From a virus: DNA of 28,651 bases. The DNA lies in the IMG/VR virus record IMGVR_UViG_3300021142_000141, positions 1-28,651 of that record, one strand, 5' to 3'. Positions 5,085-15,578 of this stretch are shown one piece after another; position 1 is the stretch's first letter; each line of letters opens with the position of its first letter. A program made the position numbers and the translations under genes. Below the pieces are notes generated by a model. It worked only from the letters and a program-made list of their open reading frames with translations. It made no database searches and was not told the DNA's origin.

Positions 5085-5111
5085 AAACCCTTTCATTCGG
5101 AAGGGTTTTTT
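5085..5111 (+). terminator. Intrinsic terminator after tail tube gene
   Basis: AAACCCTT (5085-5092) pairs with AAGGGTTT (5101-5108) around the loop TCATTCGG, followed by a T-run to 5111. An A-run on the other side may let it also work on the minus strand. The stop codon of the minus-strand gene lies in the loop, so convergent transcripts probably share it. Confidence 0.75.
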
Positions 5112-5554
5112 ATTATATGATATTTTTTCTTAGCTTCTAAATATGCTTCTCTTGCTTCCTCCTCAGTATCAAATGTTCCAAGATGTAAACCTTTACCGTT
5201 TAAATGAATACAAGATTTCCATTTTTTATGTTTTTTAGACCAATAAGCACCTTTTGCATTTGTATTGAAATGATTTTCTTGATTATTAATTGATCTTAAA
5301 TTTGAAATACGATTATCTAATCTATTAATATTTATATGATCAATCTGATCACATACCATTTTATTAACCCAATAATAAATAAATTGGTGATGATATATTC
5401 TATATACAATTTTATCAAAATTAAAAGTAAATCTTTTATAACCATTAGCAATATTACCTATTTTATTACCTCTTTTACCAAATACCTCACCTGTATCAGG
5501 ATCACAAGTATATCCCATTTCAATTGCCTTTAGTATCTTTTTCTCTCTTGTCAT
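5093..5554 (-). CDS. HNH homing endonuclease with AP2 DNA-binding domain
   Basis: This 153-residue protein has the two-part build of free-standing phage homing endonucleases. Residues about 50-96 form an HNH domain: YRIYHHQFIYYW, then CDQIDHININRLDNRISNLR with the metal-binding and catalytic His/Asn residues, then NNQEN. Residues about 102-146 form an AP2-type DNA-binding domain (GAYWSKKHKKWKSCI, then LHLGTFDTEEEAREAY). The N-terminus (CDPDTGEVFGKRG) matches the usual lead-in strand of these enzymes. Such enzymes cut an unoccupied allele and spread by repair. It is encoded against the direction of all neighbours and sits between the tail tube gene and a new transcription unit, as expected of an inserted mobile gene. 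No intron boundaries are visible, so it seems to be free-standing. Confidence 0.88.
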   Translation of the reverse strand: MTREKKILKAIEMGYTCDPDTGEVFGKRGNKIGNIANGYKRFTFNFDKIVYRIYHHQFIYYWVNKMVCDQIDHININRLDNRISNLRSINNQENHFNTNAKGAYWSKKHKKWKSCIHLNGKGLHLGTFDTEEEAREAYLEAKKKYHIIKNPSE

Positions 5555-8435: not shown

Positions 8436-8861
8436 ATGAAGCACTTTCTATACTCAATGCTACTAACAATTTTAGCATTTTTAGCACCAATTAAGGGAAT
8501 TTTAATACTTCTGGTAATGTTTATAGTATTAGATACAATATTCGCTATCTACGCGTCAGTAAAACTAAAAGGATGGAAAAGTTTTACAAGTTCAAAACTA
8601 TTCAATATAGTTACTAAATCATTTTTCTATTTACTCACAGTAATAATGGCATTCATGGCTGATGAATATATCTGTGGTGGCTCTTTATTTGGTATAGCAC
8701 ATGTTTTAAGTAAAGCTATGGGAGTTTTCTGGGTGATGATAGAGGTAAAATCACTTGATGAAACTTCTATGAAGTTGGGAAATAAATCATTTTGGTCTTT
8801 AATGCGACAAATGATTGGAAGATATAAAAATATCAAAAAAGATATTAATGATGCTGAATAA
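8436..8861 (+). CDS. Holin-like membrane protein
   Basis: This 141-residue protein has a hydrophobic N-terminal half with predicted membrane spans at about residues 5-15, 20-38 and 62-76, and a weaker fourth near 90-103. The order LDTIFAIYASVKLKGW, then SSKLFNIVTKSFFYLL, resembles the DxxxGxxxAxKxxxxxSSKxxxGxxxK pattern of a widespread phage holin family. The C-terminus is charged (KNIKKDINDAE), as holins often have. Holins form membrane lesions that time lysis and release the endolysin; no endolysin is recognisable in this window. A strong terminator follows, so the gene ends the portal transcription unit. Confidence 0.7.
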   Translation: MKHFLYSMLLTILAFLAPIKGILILLVMFIVLDTIFAIYASVKLKGWKSFTSSKLFNIVTKSFFYLLTVIMAFMADEYICGGSLFGIAHVLSKAMGVFWVMIEVKSLDETSMKLGNKSFWSLMRQMIGRYKNIKKDINDAE

Positions 8862-8891: not shown

Positions 8892-8917
8892 AAACCACCT
8901 TTTATAGGTGGTTTTTT
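8892..8917 (+). terminator. Intrinsic terminator after holin-like gene
   Basis: AAACCACCT (8892-8900) pairs perfectly with AGGTGGTTT (8906-8914) around the loop TTTAT, and the stem runs into a T-run (8912-8917). This is a textbook Rho-independent terminator. Confidence 0.85.
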
Positions 8918-8951: not shown

Positions 8952-9557
8952 ATGAGAAAGAGTAAATATACCGATGAGATGGTAATACAATTCATTGAGG
9001 ACAATAAACATTTAAGCCGAAAACAATTGAGAATGCTAAATGAAGCAATATATCAGCAAATATATAATCGTAAATTAGAACATCATTTACCACCAAAAAC
9101 CACTCGGTATGGTACATTGGTTGGTGAGGGTCCTAATGCTGGAAGATATAAAGGAAAAAATGAAAGAAAAAAAGATAAACCTATTAAAATTGTAAAACCA
9201 ACTGAAGACCGTGAGAGACCTCAAACTCCAAAATTAATGTATAAAAGTTATAAGATAGATGATAATACATATTTTTGTGGTAGATGTCAACAGGAAAGAA
9301 CTTTAGATAAGTTTAACATTCATACTAAAACAATTTGTAGTAAATGTTATAATAAAATAGTCCATTATATGGGAAAAGATCAAGATACTAACCCTTGGAA
9401 TGTTAAAGATTACTATTGTAATTCTGTAGTTAATGTTAGTGAAAGCCAAAAGTTTGAGATAGGAATTAAAGTTGAACCAAGATTACAAGAGTGGCTAACA
9501 AAAATCGGGTATCAATTTATATTTAAAAGATTCTATAACGAGAAGCATATTAAATAA
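8952..9557 (+). CDS. Zinc-ribbon protein of unknown function
   Basis: The 201-residue protein has three visible parts. Residues about 5-42 are helical and basic (TDEMVIQFIEDNKHLSRKQL) and may form a helix-turn-helix. Residues about 55-95 are a Lys/Arg-rich linker. Residues about 109-132 hold a zinc-binding pattern CxxC-x(18)-CxxC (FCGRCQQERTLDKF, then TICSKCYNK). The C-terminal 60 residues are unrecognised. Zinc ribbons of this type occur in phage HNH nucleases and DNA-binding proteins, but no HNH motif follows, so I do not call it a nuclease. It stands alone between the holin terminator and the structured RNA. Confidence 0.6.
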   Translation: MRKSKYTDEMVIQFIEDNKHLSRKQLRMLNEAIYQQIYNRKLEHHLPPKTTRYGTLVGEGPNAGRYKGKNERKKDKPIKIVKPTEDRERPQTPKLMYKSYKIDDNTYFCGRCQQERTLDKFNIHTKTICSKCYNKIVHYMGKDQDTNPWNVKDYYCNSVVNVSESQKFEIGIKVEPRLQEWLTKIGYQFIFKRFYNEKHIK

Positions 9558-9566
9558 GTGTAACCC

Positions 9567-9587
9567 ACACCCCACCCAAGGGGGTGT
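9567..9587 (+). other. GC-rich hairpin downstream of the zinc-ribbon gene
   Basis: ACACCCC (9567-9573) pairs with GGGGTGT (9581-9587) around ACCCAAG. No T-run follows, so it is either a 3' end stabilising hairpin of the upstream message or part of the RNA region that follows. Between it and the candidate promoter at 9634 the DNA is A/T-rich with a duplicated AAAAATAATTT. Confidence 0.45.
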
Positions 9588-9633
9588 TCAGCGACTTAAA
9601 AATAATTTAAAAATAATTTAAAAAACAACCTAA

Positions 9634-9665
9634 GGGGGAAGATGGAATATAATATATACATTATA
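9634..9665 (+). promoter_or_regulatory. Candidate phage promoter of the structured RNA
   Basis: A GGGGGAAGATGG purine box is followed by TAATATATACATTATA (9650-9665). This 16-mer is identical to the one at 11125-11140 in front of the gene at 11159. It lies directly before the first hairpin of the structured region. Confidence 0.45.
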
Positions 9666-10166
9666 GAGGTTCCTCAACAGGCACAAGCACCTCAACCTAC
9701 CAAGGGTTAAAAATTATGCCTTCTATGAGAAAGTTTGGGATCACAAACATCATAGTAAATCAAGGCCACAGGTTGAAATAACTTCTTATAAGGGCTGCAA
9801 TCCTTATAAGAAGTGTGGTTGAGAAAAGTCATTAGAATGTATTTACACTAATGTCCCGCAATGTTTAGACCTAACAACGGGCCCTTCATACCAGAAATGG
9901 AAATAGTAAATACTTACCAAGTGATCCTTTAATGATAAAAGTTAAAGGGTGAAGGATGCCTTTGAGACGTAACGAGGTCCGGGCGGGTGCTAATGGCTTG
10001 ACGAATTAGTAATGGTTCGTAAGTCCAAATATTCTAATTTAACTCTATTTAGTTGAGTTCTAATATGAAGGATAGAGGTCTCGTTATATCCAATAATTAA
10101 GTACTTTTAAATGTGAATTGCTGTCGTTAGACCAGCAAGAGTGCAAATGTTAATGCAATTAATACT
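9666..10166 (+). ncRNA. Large structured non-coding RNA (candidate, ~500 nt)
   Basis: No plausible protein gene covers this region, it is richer in G and C than its surroundings, and it is full of local stems. Clear ones are: GCCTT+CTATGA (9718-9728) with TCATAG (9750-9755) and AAGGC (9762-9766), capped by GTTTG (9733-9737)/CAAAC (9744-9748); a perfect 13-bp stem 9781-9793/9802-9814 with an 8-base loop; CCACA (9766-9770)/TGTGG (9814-9818) around it; CATTAG (9830-9835) plus TGT (9838-9840) with ACACTAATG (9845-9853); CCCG (9855-9858)/CGGG (9878-9881); CCTTTAA (9926-9932)/TTAAAGG (9942-9948); an 11-bp long-range stem 9969-9979/10077-10087 with three G-U pairs, enclosing 9995-10005/10016-10026 and AACTC/GAGTT (10041-10059); TTGCTG (10118-10123)/CAGCAA (10133-10138). 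Size, phage setting and multi-stem form recall GOLLD and ROOL RNAs; I cannot tell whether it belongs to either. Strand is inferred from the candidate promoter. The 3' end is uncertain. Confidence 0.72.
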
Positions 10167-10171
10167 TTCAT
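10127..10171 (-). CDS. Possible leader-like micro-ORF (14 aa)
   Basis: On the minus strand an ATG overlaps the stop of the 10168-10464 gene (ATGA) and encodes MKVLIALTFALLLV, a short hydrophobic peptide like a membrane or signal segment. It lies inside the 3' end of the structured RNA on the other strand. The ATGA coupling resembles that after the genes at 11624 and 11914. It may equally be chance. Confidence 0.2.
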   Translation of the reverse strand: MKVLIALTFALLLV

Positions 10172-10190
10172 AATCCTAATTTTTCTAATT
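10168..10190 (-). repeat. 23-bp repeat, diverged minus-strand copy
   Basis: Read on the minus strand this is AATTAGAAAAATTAGGATTA plus TGA, matching the plus-strand copies at 20 of 23 bases. It codes for the LEKLGL end of the 10168-10464 protein and overlaps an ATG in the same ATGA arrangement. Confidence 0.55.
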
Positions 10191-10464
10191 GATCATTTCG
10201 GTATTCTATTATATATACCGGTATAAAATCTTCAATTTCCCAGGCATATGATTTCTTAAATAAATCTAAATCAAAATCATCTTTAAATTTCCATTTCCAT
10301 TTAGAATGTTTATATTTTGATGTATGTAAAAGTGCATACCATGTTTTATCATGATATACATAATACAAACCCCAGAGATAATAATATTCATCTGAACGAT
10401 AATCTTCTGATATAAAATAACCTTTATCTATTTTTTCTATTAATATCTCCATCAATGCTTTCAT
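10168..10464 (-). CDS. Small hypothetical protein with LGL-type C-terminus
   Basis: This 98-residue protein is rich in Tyr, Trp, Lys and Asp (SDEYYYLWGLYYVYHDKTW, then KYKHSKWKWKFKDDFDLD). No domain is recognised. It ends in NDQLEKLGL, close to the LKELGL ends of the two plus-strand proteins at 11624 and 11914, and the DNA coding for this end (10168-10190) matches theirs at 20 of 23 bases. It has its own host-type promoter at 10495-10526, inside the 3' end of the next minus-strand gene. Own promoter, opposite direction and accessory position suggest an early or constitutively expressed host-interaction gene, which is an inference. Confidence 0.6.
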   Translation of the reverse strand: MKALMEILIEKIDKGYFISEDYRSDEYYYLWGLYYVYHDKTWYALLHTSKYKHSKWKWKFKDDFDLDLFKKSYAWEIEDFIPVYIIEYRNDQLEKLGL

Positions 10465-11112: not shown

Positions 11113-11140
11113 GAGAAAAAAACTTAATATATACATTATA
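11113..11140 (+). promoter_or_regulatory. Candidate phage promoter (purine box + TAATATATACATTATA)
   Basis: GAGAAAAAAA is followed by TAATATATACATTATA (11125-11140), identical over 16 bases to the site at 9650. The ATG of the next gene is at 11159. With the minus-strand host promoter at 11047-11077 it makes a divergent control region of 141 bases. Confidence 0.45.
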
Positions 11141-11158: not shown

Positions 11159-11605
11159 ATGAAAAAAACCACATCAACACAAGATCAAGAGATTTTAGCT
11201 ACGTTCTTAGCTAAGAAGTTCTTCCCAAAGCAATCAAGAACAGTTAGTGCTAAACAACTATGTAATTATTTAAATAATAAATTAGAAGTAATTAATGCAA
11301 TGCTACAAACTAACTTTAAAACTATTACAGATGCATCGCTCAGGAATATGATTAACTTCATCAGGACGAACGATCTAATAAAAGATGGAAAACTTATAGC
11401 AAACTCAAAAGGATACTTTGTAAGCAACGATAAACAGCAAATACTTGAGTTCGTTGCCTCAATGGAAGGAAGAGTAAAAGCAATATACCAAGCAACAAAT
11501 GGATTAAGAAAGAATATAAATAACTATAGCTCTCCTCAAAGATCATCCATTGAAAAAACTTTAAAACTAATAATCAAAGATGATCTGTTTGACAGTCTAT
11601 CTTAA
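11159..11605 (+). CDS. Winged-helix-like DNA-binding protein (putative)
   Basis: This 148-residue basic protein has helices typical of a winged helix: VSAKQLCNYLNNKLEVINAM, then SLRNMINFIRTNDLI as a likely recognition region, then a beta wing GKLIANSKGYFVSNDKQQIL, then a helix EFVASMEGRVKAIYQATNGL. The sequence RNMINFIRTNxLIxxGxLIANSKGYFVSxDxxEI is like small phage proteins thought to regulate transcription or replication. It is first in its unit, behind a candidate phage promoter, and divergent from two host-promoter genes, so a regulator role fits. I am sure of the gene and less sure of the function. Confidence 0.65.
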   Translation: MKKTTSTQDQEILATFLAKKFFPKQSRTVSAKQLCNYLNNKLEVINAMLQTNFKTITDASLRNMINFIRTNDLIKDGKLIANSKGYFVSNDKQQILEFVASMEGRVKAIYQATNGLRKNINNYSSPQRSSIEKTLKLIIKDDLFDSLS

Positions 11606-11623: not shown

Positions 11624-11917
11624 ATGAATTTTACAGAAGAAGAATTAAAATTATACAACGAATACTCCACAGTATTAAAAGGTATGATTCAAGATGATAT
11701 AAAAGATAAATATGATCTAAAAATTTCTATATTCAATATAGAAATATTAAATATAAATAGTAAACCAGATGTTAATTATGCTTTTCCTAACGAAGATGGT
11801 TTGACTATAGGTGAAACTATAAAGGATGTTTTAAAAGCAGCACCAACATTTAATCAGTTCTTAAACATGAAGAAGCGAGAACATAGAAGAAAACAATTAA
11901 AAGAATTAGGACTATGA
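11624..11917 (+). CDS. Small hypothetical protein, LKELGL family, copy 1
   Basis: This 97-residue protein opens with MNFTEEELKLYNEYSTVLKG and closes with REHRRKQLKELGL. The next gene begins in a similar way (YTDEEIILYKSYSLYV), has the same middle layout and ends with the same six residues, so the two appear to be tandem paralogues. The stop overlaps the next ATG (ATGA), which suggests coupled translation. No function is known to me; the mix of acidic N-terminus and basic C-terminus suggests a protein or nucleic-acid contact. Confidence 0.6.
   Translation: MNFTEEELKLYNEYSTVLKGMIQDDIKDKYDLKISIFNIEILNINSKPDVNYAFPNEDGLTIGETIKDVLKAAPTFNQFLNMKKREHRRKQLKELGL
11895..11917 (+). repeat. 23-bp repeat coding for LKELGL end, copy 1
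   Basis: AATTAAAAGAATTAGGACTA plus TGA is identical to 12212-12234 and has a 20/23 match on the minus strand at 10168-10190. Each copy encodes the last residues and stop of a small gene and creates an ATGA overlap with a following start. Confidence 0.75.
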
Positions 11918-12234
11918 ACCCAGATTATACTGATGAAGAAATTATATTATATAAATCATATTCTTTATATGTTAATAAACAAATAGAAAAAGAATTAAAA
12001 AAAAAATATGGTTTTAATGCCAAATCCCATGATATTATATATAGTATATACAATTCATTTGAATTAGAACAAAGAATTGATAGAGATTATGTTATATATG
12101 AATATTATATTGATTACGGAATGGATATTAATGAAATATTAAAAGATGGTATTGTAGTATTTTCAATTGTAGGTTGGAAAAATGATAAAACAAGAAAGCA
12201 AAGAAATAAAAAATTAAAAGAATTAGGACTATGA
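11914..12234 (+). CDS. Small hypothetical protein, LKELGL family, copy 2
   Basis: This 106-residue protein looks paralogous to the one before it: DEEIILYKSYSLYVNKQIEK aligns with EEELKLYNEYSTVLKGMIQD, a KYG/KYD step follows, then a Tyr-rich central part (YVIYEYYIDYGMDINEIL) aligns with YAFPNEDGLTIGETI, and both end RKQxxKxLKELGL. The DNA for the end (12212-12234) is identical over 23 bases to the end of copy 1. The start overlaps the previous stop by four bases, and the stop overlaps a further small ORF in the same way. Confidence 0.6.
   Translation: MNPDYTDEEIILYKSYSLYVNKQIEKELKKKYGFNAKSHDIIYSIYNSFELEQRIDRDYVIYEYYIDYGMDINEILKDGIVVFSIVGWKNDKTRKQRNKKLKELGL
12212..12234 (+). repeat. 23-bp repeat coding for LKELGL end, copy 2
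   Basis: Identical to 11895-11917. It ends at the stop of the 11914 gene and overlaps the start of the 28-residue ORF at 12231. Confidence 0.75.
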
Positions 12235-12807: not shown

Positions 12808-13360
12808 AAATAAATTACTTGAATACATATTCACCGATAATGAAATACATAAAGCAATCAAATCTATAGTTGATACTATGTACCACGAAGATATGAAAAC
12901 CCACCTAATTGAACAACTGATAAAAATAGATGAAGATAAACTATTAAAACTATATAACGATAAAGAATTAATATACTTCTGTATAAAGATAATAAAAAAC
13001 CAATACGAATCATCAACATCAACATTCTATAAAATATACAGAAATAAAGGACAAACAAAATTATTTAGAACATATAATTTTACTACATCTGAAAACTTAT
13101 TAGATGAAACAGAAGAATACATAGATAGTCCAACACCTAAAGAAACATTAAATAAATTAAAACTATTACTATTAAATCAATACGAAGACTTCCTAACAAA
13201 CCAATACCATAAAACTCTATTTGAACTATACTATTTCAAAAAATTAAAACTAAGAGAAATACAAGATAAAACAGGAATAGACTACAGGACAATTAGTAGA
13301 TCAATCCGAAAAACAAAGGCTTGGTTAAAAAATGAACTAAAAGATTATGGGTATTTTTGA
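12800..13360 (+). CDS. Sigma-70-like transcription factor (putative)
   Basis: This 186-residue protein has the layout of a small sigma factor. Residues about 46-82 (DKLLKLYNDKELIYFCIKII, then KNQYESSTSTFYKIY) resemble region 2, which binds core polymerase and the -10 element. A flexible acidic linker follows (LLDETEEYIDSPTP). Residues about 134-180 resemble region 4: LFELYYFKKLKLREIQDKTG, then IDYRTISRSIRKTKAWLKNE, a helix-turn-helix that would read the -35 element. Such phage proteins are thought to redirect host polymerase to late genes. The candidate TAATATATA motif sites might be its targets, which is inference. A transposase-like or replication HTH protein is the alternative. Neighbours overlap on both sides. 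Confidence 0.6.
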   Translation: MNKNKLLEYIFTDNEIHKAIKSIVDTMYHEDMKTHLIEQLIKIDEDKLLKLYNDKELIYFCIKIIKNQYESSTSTFYKIYRNKGQTKLFRTYNFTTSENLLDETEEYIDSPTPKETLNKLKLLLLNQYEDFLTNQYHKTLFELYYFKKLKLREIQDKTGIDYRTISRSIRKTKAWLKNELKDYGYF

Positions 13361-13508
13361 AGAAGTATATGTATCAGAACTTGGATTCATAATGGTTAAG
13401 ATTTATTATCCCAAGGAGAAGCGCTATGTTAAATATATAGTAGGTAAGGTAAGTGATATACACGAAAATATTATTATACCTAATGATAAAATAAATATTA
13501 AAAAATGA
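13347..13508 (+). CDS. Small hypothetical protein (53 aa)
   Basis: The ATG lies 14 bases inside the 3' end of the sigma-like gene, and the stop overlaps the next ATG (ATGA). The product (MGIFEEVYVSELGFIMVKIY, then YPKEKRYVKYIVGKVSDIHE) is beta-rich and basic, like a small SH3-type barrel, but not recognised. Tight overlap on both sides supports it as a real gene in a coupled chain. Confidence 0.5.
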   Translation: MGIFEEVYVSELGFIMVKIYYPKEKRYVKYIVGKVSDIHENIIIPNDKINIKK

Positions 13509-13786
13509 TATTAACAATTACATTATTAAAATGCCTACTACTGGCTAATGTTATAGCCAATTTCAGCCCCTTACAATGGCTTTTAGAAGCACTACCAGAC
13601 AATCTATTCAAATGGACTTTAATAGTGCTTACATCGTGCTCTAAATGTGTAAGTTTCTGGACTACATTAATCTATACACACGATATATTCATCGCATCAG
13701 GAGCATATTTTGCTATGAGTATGTTAAGCACAGCATGGAATAATATAACTACAACTTATATAAGAAGATTAAATAAAAACAATTAA
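13505..13786 (+). CDS. Membrane protein with CxxC motif
   Basis: This 93-residue protein has two or three predicted membrane spans (ILTITLLKCLLLANVIANF, then LFKWTLIVLTSCSKCVSFWT, then IFIASGAYFAMSMLSTAW). The SCSKCVSFW stretch is like the conserved Cys pair and aromatic segment seen in small phage membrane proteins of unknown function. It ends in a basic tail (IRRLNKNN) that would face the cytoplasm. No function is known; a role in host envelope change is only a guess. Confidence 0.6.
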   Translation: MILTITLLKCLLLANVIANFSPLQWLLEALPDNLFKWTLIVLTSCSKCVSFWTTLIYTHDIFIASGAYFAMSMLSTAWNNITTTYIRRLNKNN

Positions 13787-14053: not shown

Positions 14054-14296
14054 ATGACATTAGAAGACATGGATACAAAAGAATTTAGTAAGTATATTAA
14101 ATTCATTAAAAAAAAATTAAAAAAGATTATTAAAGAAGAACGTAATATAGATGTTAAATTAGCAGATATATTATACCAAGGGATTAAAATGGATCAATCA
14201 TCCATAAGATATTCATTCAAGTATAATGGAACTTTTACAGATGGTACATTATTAAACCCAACTACATTTGATGAATTTGTAAAAAATAATAAATAA
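14054..14296 (+). CDS. Small hypothetical protein (80 aa)
   Basis: I choose the ATG at 14054 over an earlier in-frame start at 14012, which would overlap the preceding gene by 26 bases. The product (MTLEDMDTKEFSKYIKFIKK, then KLKKIIKEERNIDVKLADIL) is Lys/Glu-rich with a long helix followed by a short beta part (RYSFKYNGTFTDGTLLNPT). It is not recognised. It is separated from the methyltransferase start by one base. Confidence 0.5.
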   Translation: MTLEDMDTKEFSKYIKFIKKKLKKIIKEERNIDVKLADILYQGIKMDQSSIRYSFKYNGTFTDGTLLNPTTFDEFVKNNK

Positions 14297-14297
14297 A

Positions 14298-15578
14298 ATG
14301 AATAAGATAAAATTAATGTTAGGTGATAATATAGAATCACTTAAAAAACTACCAGATAATAGTATAGATAGTATAGTAAGTGATCCACCATATGCTTTAA
14401 CTTCTATCAGAAAACGATATGGTAAAGAAGGTTCAGCCCCACCAAAGTTTGGAACAGATGGTGCTTTTCAACGTGCAGCAAAAGGATTTATGGGTAAAGA
14501 ATGGGATTCAGAAGTTCCAACAGTAGAGTTCTGGCGAGAAGTATATCGTGTATTAAAACCAGGAGGACACGTTCTTTCATTCGGAGGAACAAGAACTTAT
14601 CACAGAATGGCTGTGAATATAGAAGATGCTGGGTTTGAAATTAGAGATCAAATAATGTGGTTATATGGTTCAGGATTTCCGAAGTCACATAATATAGGTA
14701 AAGCAATTGATGCCACTATTAAAACAGGAAAGTCAAATCCTAAAGCTATAAATAAAAGTGAGATGAGTAAATCAGATGGTGAAGTTGTAAATGTTATGCA
14801 ACCTAATAATGGTATTCTTGGTGATAAAAAACTTATTACTAAAAATGTTGGTGCATCACTTCAAACAGAACAAGCACAACAATGGGAAGGGTGGGGAACA
14901 TCGCTCAAACCGGCTAATGAACCAATCTGTGTAGCAAGAAAACCTTTAAGTGAGAAGTCAGTTGCTGCTAATGTTCTTAAATGGGGAACAGGTGGAATAA
15001 ACATAGATGGGTGTAGAATCGGGACAGAAACAATATCTTCTGGTAAAAGTAAGGTTGTTGCAGGAGGTCAATTGAACAGAAAAAACACCAGAATAGATAT
15101 AGAAGAAACATTTAGTGAAGGTAGATTTCCTGCCAACATTATATTAGATGAAGAAGCAGGTAGAGTATTAGATCAACAATTAAATGCCTCCCGTTTCTTC
15201 TATCAAGCAAAAGTTAGTAAGAAAGAAAGAAATATGGGACTTGATGCATTTGATGATAAGACATCTCAATTAAATTCTGGTGGTATAGGTAGAAAAACAT
15301 CTGTTGAAAAGCGACTTGATAGTAATGGTGAGAATGCACCAACAACAAAGAATTCACATCCAACGGTTAAGCCTGTTAATTTAATGGCTTACTTATGTAG
15401 ATTAGTAACACCTCCAGGTGGTATAGTTCTTGATCCGTTCATGGGTAGTGGTTCAACAGGTATAGCAGCAAGGTTAGAAGGTTTTAAATTCTGTGGAATG
15501 GAAATGGATCCCGAATATTTTAAAATAGCAGAAACAAGAATAAATAACTTTGAAGAATATAGACAATTTATTAAATAG
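14298..15578 (+). CDS. Orphan DNA adenine methyltransferase (beta-class type)
   Basis: This 426-residue enzyme has catalytic motif IV DPPY (residues 29-32) near the N-terminus and the cofactor-binding motif I DPFMGSGSTGIAARLEG near residue 379, the order of beta-class N6-adenine or N4-cytosine DNA methyltransferases. DPPY favours adenine. Further marks are the target region around RVLKPGGHVLSFGGTRTYH (about 87-105), WLYGSGFPKSHNIGKAIDA (about 121-139), and NSHPTVKPVNLMAYLCRLVT before motif I. It uses S-adenosylmethionine. No restriction endonuclease gene is beside it, so it is an orphan that probably protects phage DNA from host restriction or times gene expression. Recognition sequence cannot be read from the gene. 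Confidence 0.88.
   Translation: MNKIKLMLGDNIESLKKLPDNSIDSIVSDPPYALTSIRKRYGKEGSAPPKFGTDGAFQRAAKGFMGKEWDSEVPTVEFWREVYRVLKPGGHVLSFGGTRTYHRMAVNIEDAGFEIRDQIMWLYGSGFPKSHNIGKAIDATIKTGKSNPKAINKSEMSKSDGEVVNVMQPNNGILGDKKLITKNVGASLQTEQAQQWEGWGTSLKPANEPICVARKPLSEKSVAANVLKWGTGGINIDGCRIGTETISSGKSKVVAGGQLNRKNTRIDIEETFSEGRFPANIILDEEAGRVLDQQLNASRFFYQAKVSKKERNMGLDAFDDKTSQLNSGGIGRKTSVEKRLDSNGENAPTTKNSHPTVKPVNLMAYLCRLVTPPGGIVLDPFMGSGSTGIAARLEGFKFCGMEMDPEYFKIAETRINNFEEYRQFIK

Follow-up and report, generated by a model that had tools for sequence, protein, structure and literature searches.

What is encoded, if anything, in the 610 bases without a gene that lie between positions 9557 and 10168 of a tailed-phage genome? 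The record in question (IMGVR_UViG_3300021142_000141), which at its full length of 28,651 bases is called the window hereafter, is linear and viral and carries genes for TerL, portal, prohead protease, holin, a sigma-like factor and a DNA methylase. The named phages matched by its portal protein include P12024S/L, flavobacterial phages of Nonlabens (27% identity), and Shine-Dalgarno sequences are not obvious at its gene starts; on this basis the Bacteroidota host proposed by the initial annotation is plausible, short of proof. To the left of the stretch, the holin gene (8436-8861, +; PF05105, Pfam Phage_holin_4_1, E=1.9e-8) is followed by a hairpin resembling an intrinsic terminator (8892-8914, +) and by the gene of a 201-aa zinc-ribbon protein with two CxxC pairs (8952-9557, +). 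To the right, a convergent gene on the minus strand (10168-10464) encodes a 98-aa protein of unknown function. The interval 9558-10167 proved to be free of genes, as first annotated, its longest internal ORF being 41 aa. Indeed, the mean log-odds score per codon lies between -0.36 and -0.60 in the six frames of 9665-10160, whereas the correct frames of five genes nearby reach +0.24 to +0.47, and read-through translations of the region matched no PHROGs family. We suggest that the most probable content of this interval is a promoter-driven, free-standing, folded non-coding RNA read from the plus strand and carried as accessory cargo by one phage lineage; that a real free-standing structured transcript exists is predicted with fairly good confidence.

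The folding statistics carry much of this proposal. When all 500-nt segments of the window were ranked, on both strands, the plus strand of 9640-10139 came first in folding energy (-134 kcal/mol, the lowest) as well as in z-score (-4.9, likewise the lowest; mean of all segments -0.7, sd 1.2); the 500-nt segment with another start gave z = -3.5, and 9620-10130 gave z -2.96 with 0/100 shuffles as stable, all of these being z-scores from single sequences and as such only moderately diagnostic. The GC content amounts to 37% in the region vs 30.6% in the whole window and peaks at 56% in 9950-9999; such enrichment commonly marks structured RNAs where the genome is AT-rich. Folding is better on the plus strand than on the minus strand, which also folds well, and the predicted pairing includes 17 G-U pairs that are possible on the plus strand only. 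The initial annotation had described a large structured non-coding RNA with its own promoter, and this description is backed by the folding statistics, the GC enrichment, the lack of coding signal and a repeated promoter motif (see below).

The candidate RNA (9666-10160, +, both ends predicted) would fold into at least three stem-rich domains, all given here on the plus strand; the z-scores quoted for single stems concern stems picked after the fact, the whole-region z-score and the segment rank being less biased. Domain 1 (9692-9777) is closed by the helix UCAACCU (9692-9698)/AGGUUGA (9770-9776) and encloses a three-tier stem (9718-9766; GCCUU/AAGGC, CUAUGA/UCAUAG and GUUUG/CAAAC; z -2.6). 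It is followed by a perfect 13-bp hairpin (9781-9814, arms 9781-9793/9802-9814; z -5.2), which is well beyond chance (expectation ~6e-4, a rough estimate), and by a weak CCCG/CGGG hairpin (9855-9881; z -1.5). Domain 2 (9882-9956; z -2.6) is a CCUUCA/UGAAGG stem around two hairpins, CCA/UGG and CCUUUAAU/GUUAAAGG. Domain 3 (9969-10087, 119 nt), the GC-richest part of the region, has a z-score of -3.7 with 0/200 shuffles as stable. Its multi-way junction is closed by an 11-bp long-range stem (9969-9979/10077-10087) which contains three G-U pairs and of which several would by itself be expected by chance in 600 nt (rough estimate), although the domain taken together does exceed chance. This stem encloses a 13-bp hairpin with a GUAA (GNRA) loop (9995-10025; z -4.3) and a 14-bp hairpin with a symmetric CU/CU internal loop (10029-10066; z -2.4). 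UGCUAA at 9988-9993 could alternatively join 10006-10011. A pseudoknot between hairpin and loop was also considered for domain 3, but was not preferred to the 13-bp GNRA hairpin. The last strong stem is a 3'-terminal hairpin (UUGCUGUCGUUAGACCAGCAA; 10118-10138; z -3.7). The three-tier stem, the perfect 13-bp hairpin and the 11-bp long-range stem had already been pointed out at exactly these positions. Because homologues were not found, the predicted structure rests on one sequence.

The candidate promoter also mentioned in the initial annotation is supported by a repeated motif. The promoter-like sequence AATATAATATATACATTATA (9645-9665, +) includes the 15-mer TAATATATACATTAT (9650-9664), of which 11125-11139 is an exact second copy, ahead of the gene at 11159; with two mismatches allowed, this AT-rich 15-mer is not rare in shuffles, and sigma-70-like promoter matches were no commoner than in shuffles. 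In several relatives the TTAATATATAnnnTA motif immediately precedes start codons, and AATATAATATATA is also present in the related phage L125, 3' of a zinc-ribbon homologue and 5' of a gene for a 471-aa protein. From the position of the motif, the RNA would therefore start near 9666. A phage-type promoter at about 9645-9665 would thus drive a plus-strand RNA of about 480-500 nt, with predicted limits most likely at ~9666 and ~10140-10160; no U-tract terminator was found at this 3' end. The interval 9560-10166 first assigned to the RNA is indeed gene-free but most likely exceeds the extent of the RNA, 9560-9640 lying upstream of the promoter. This upstream part contains a GC hairpin without U tract (ACACCCC/GGGGGUGU; 9566-9587, +), located 3' of the zinc-ribbon gene, and an AT-rich tandem repeat (TTAAAAATAAT x2.6; 9596-9624, +).

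The convergent genes on both sides exclude that the RNA serves a gene beside it as leader or riboswitch: such elements stand 5' of a co-directional gene, and here a minus-strand gene comes next. Another arrangement in cis, either a structured 3' UTR of the zinc-ribbon mRNA or a short-peptide/attenuator system, would account for two ORFs of 21-22 codons (9642-9710 and 9716-9781) that follow purine runs (AAGGGGGAAG and AAGGG), the second of which stops exactly at the 13-bp hairpin. However, chance would suffice to produce ORFs of such small size, the codon scores of the region are non-coding, the next plus-strand gene begins only at 11159 behind its own promoter motif, and the zinc-ribbon mRNA may already end at the GC hairpin 9566-9587, which is a possible 3' end for it. 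We therefore regard an element in cis as improbable. If the transcript is neither leader nor riboswitch, it must consequently function in trans or in the form of an RNA particle, a step of the mechanism that we infer.

The genomic context is informative on the status of the block. In relatives, what follows the holin gene varies up to the next conserved gene, so that this part of the genome forms a variable slot. The phage L126, whose portal is 71% identical, has neither the zinc-ribbon gene nor the RNA; window position 8903 corresponds to 10246 of L126 and window positions 10157-10184 to 10235-10262, this junction being approximate because the 28-nt match is the "-KLGL stop" 3' end common to small genes. 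In L125 (portal 77% identical), a zinc-ribbon homologue (35% identical) is followed by the 471-aa gene where the RNA would stand. The RNA was absent from the relatives found by TerL, portal and zinc-ribbon searches. Since the content of the slot is exchanged between related phages, the RNA is probably non-essential cargo. The 471-aa gene of L125 (13590-15005, +) lies behind a hairpin leader, and its product has a C-terminal helix-turn-helix and, in our own reading of the sequence, family-A-polymerase-like motifs.

This variability also bears on a function of the stems in DNA, as an origin of replication or as a site of packaging or recombination, in which the 11-bp repeats at 9596-9624 would serve for unwinding. 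Such a site would fit an AT-rich tandem repeat beside a stem-rich, non-coding block between convergent genes, as well as the good folding of the minus strand. Nevertheless, the block is missing in the close relative L126 and replaced by a gene in L125, the stem region is devoid of iterons, there is no GC-skew reversal beyond that expected from minus-strand genes, and a multi-domain pairing with G-U pairs favours RNA. A DNA-level role is thus no better than a long shot, and the free-standing RNA remains our preferred reading.

Does this RNA belong to a known family? A search with 4227 Rfam families gave zero matches at gathering thresholds and also, on the 661-base stretch, at E<=10. Models searched alone at E<=10 were equally silent: GOLLD (RF02032), its conserved 3' domain included; the group I intron; and ROOL (RF03087), whose search also matched no control genome. 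Of the group II models, only RF01998 was run singly, and it gave no match. The first statement that no group I or II intron core is recognisable thus holds for these models, the region moreover being located between two complete genes. HEARO/omega RNA is likewise without an Rfam match, and the neighbouring proteins have no nuclease-domain match. ROOL is associated with phages and often found near tRNA islands; the window contains no tRNA, hence no tRNA island. The kinship with GOLLD or ROOL initially put forward is not supported, in view of the zero Rfam matches and the missing tRNA island. ROOL has been described as a large, stem-rich, free-standing RNA of phages and prophages with unknown function, and GOLLD as an RNA often >800 nt with a conserved 3' domain (PMC12286853). 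The candidate shares with ROOL its large size, stem richness, free-standing state and phage-borne location, but differs from it in length (about 500 nt vs about 660 nt), in its lack of match to the model and in the absence of a tRNA island. Like GOLLD it is phage-borne, large and free-standing, whereas it does not match the GOLLD model, has no tRNA nearby and is shorter than the >800 nt often reached by GOLLD. The likeness to both is at most that of a free-standing, large, phage-borne and folded RNA, and we did not file the candidate as a member of either.

A very divergent member of GOLLD, ROOL, OLE, HEARO/omega RNA or the group I/II introns might still have been missed by the Rfam models, given a size, stem density and phage context that resemble GOLLD and ROOL. 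Against this stand the unmatched models, whether searched together or alone, and the lack of an interrupted gene, of any recognised RT, TnpB or IscB gene and of a tRNA island, so that we give this explanation very little weight. Equally little is given to decayed protein genes with chance stems, which a variable slot with high gene turnover would allow, but read-through frames match no PHROGs family, a remnant of the L125 gene is not seen, no other part of the window folds so extremely, and the GC content is raised rather than eroded.

The region is new in sequence, as judged from the databases searched, in which no relative was found. A blastn search of phages and plasmids returned one 27-nt chance match only. 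Exact 14-16-mers of the GC-rich core, looked for in viral contigs and GTDB genomes, gave only chance seeds in unrelated sequence; such scans are insensitive below about 85-90% identity (estimate) and exclude close relatives only in the sequences searched. Neither blastn and nhmmer of the fetched loci nor a portal search of GTDB genomes revealed, respectively, a homologue of the RNA or a relative of the phage. Two covariance models, R1 for domain 3 and R2 for domain 1, each run on ~400 Bacteroidota genomes, recovered the window itself only, and an unfiltered covariance search of relatives gave no match. Two apparent matches were discarded: a 31-nt one in one genome, from a DNA search of sampled Bacteroidota genomes and due to AT-rich chance, and a double one in L137, rejected because it falls in two coding stretches in opposite order. 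When the gene-free stretches of L125, L133 and L139 were compared directly, the promoter alone was in common.

To our knowledge, few large structured RNAs are recognised in phages (GOLLD and ROOL); their particles are remarkable, and no function is known for them. Traits of ROOL and GOLLD include, respectively, a homo-oligomeric RNA cage and an expression that rises at lysis. We tentatively propose, without considering it the likelier outcome, that the candidate represents a new class of large and ornate RNAs in phages, being its first member seen, unrelated to GOLLD and ROOL and carried as cargo in the variable slot behind the holin gene, together with a zinc-ribbon protein that possibly binds it. 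As the most likely mechanism, though with low confidence, and by analogy with the similar role suspected for GOLLD and ROOL, an abundant folded RNA might bind host or phage macromolecules during infection, such as the RNA-processing or translation machinery, or bind itself. With its promoter and limits predicted, one more independent candidate, carried in an accessory slot, gives RNA-seq and structural studies something definite to aim at. It also suggests that the catalogued families understate both the diversity and the lineage specificity of such RNAs.

Several minor observations were made in the window and its relatives. The TTAATATATAnnnTA motif appears to be a phage-wide promoter or leader motif, often abutting the ATG, in the window and in L124, L125, L130, L132 and L133. 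In L133, an about 480-nt gene-free stretch (12990-13519, -) lies downstream of the portal genes with this promoter motif at its start; the same sequence is found in L130 and L131 and part of it in L129. It shows no convincing sequence similarity to the window RNA, and its folding is unexceptional (z -0.6). In L139, whose portal is 42% identical, a gene-free stretch (14629-14931, +) directly 3' of a zinc-ribbon ORF (14176-14628) is GC-rich (42% vs 34%), Rfam-negative and folds with z -2.2. At about 270 nt, without sequence similarity or detected structural similarity to the window RNA, it is a second candidate structured RNA, predicted in a distant relative. The same -K(L)KELGL/I tail ends unrelated-looking small proteins encoded in the window (10168-10464 on the minus strand, 11624-11917 and 11914-12234) and in L125 (15977-16730). 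An HNH + AP2 homing-endonuclease-like gene (5093-5554, -) occupies a gap between structural genes of the window. Finally, the end of the contig (28452-28651) is made of tandem 9/27/63-bp repeats encoding a collagen-like GTSGTS tract.
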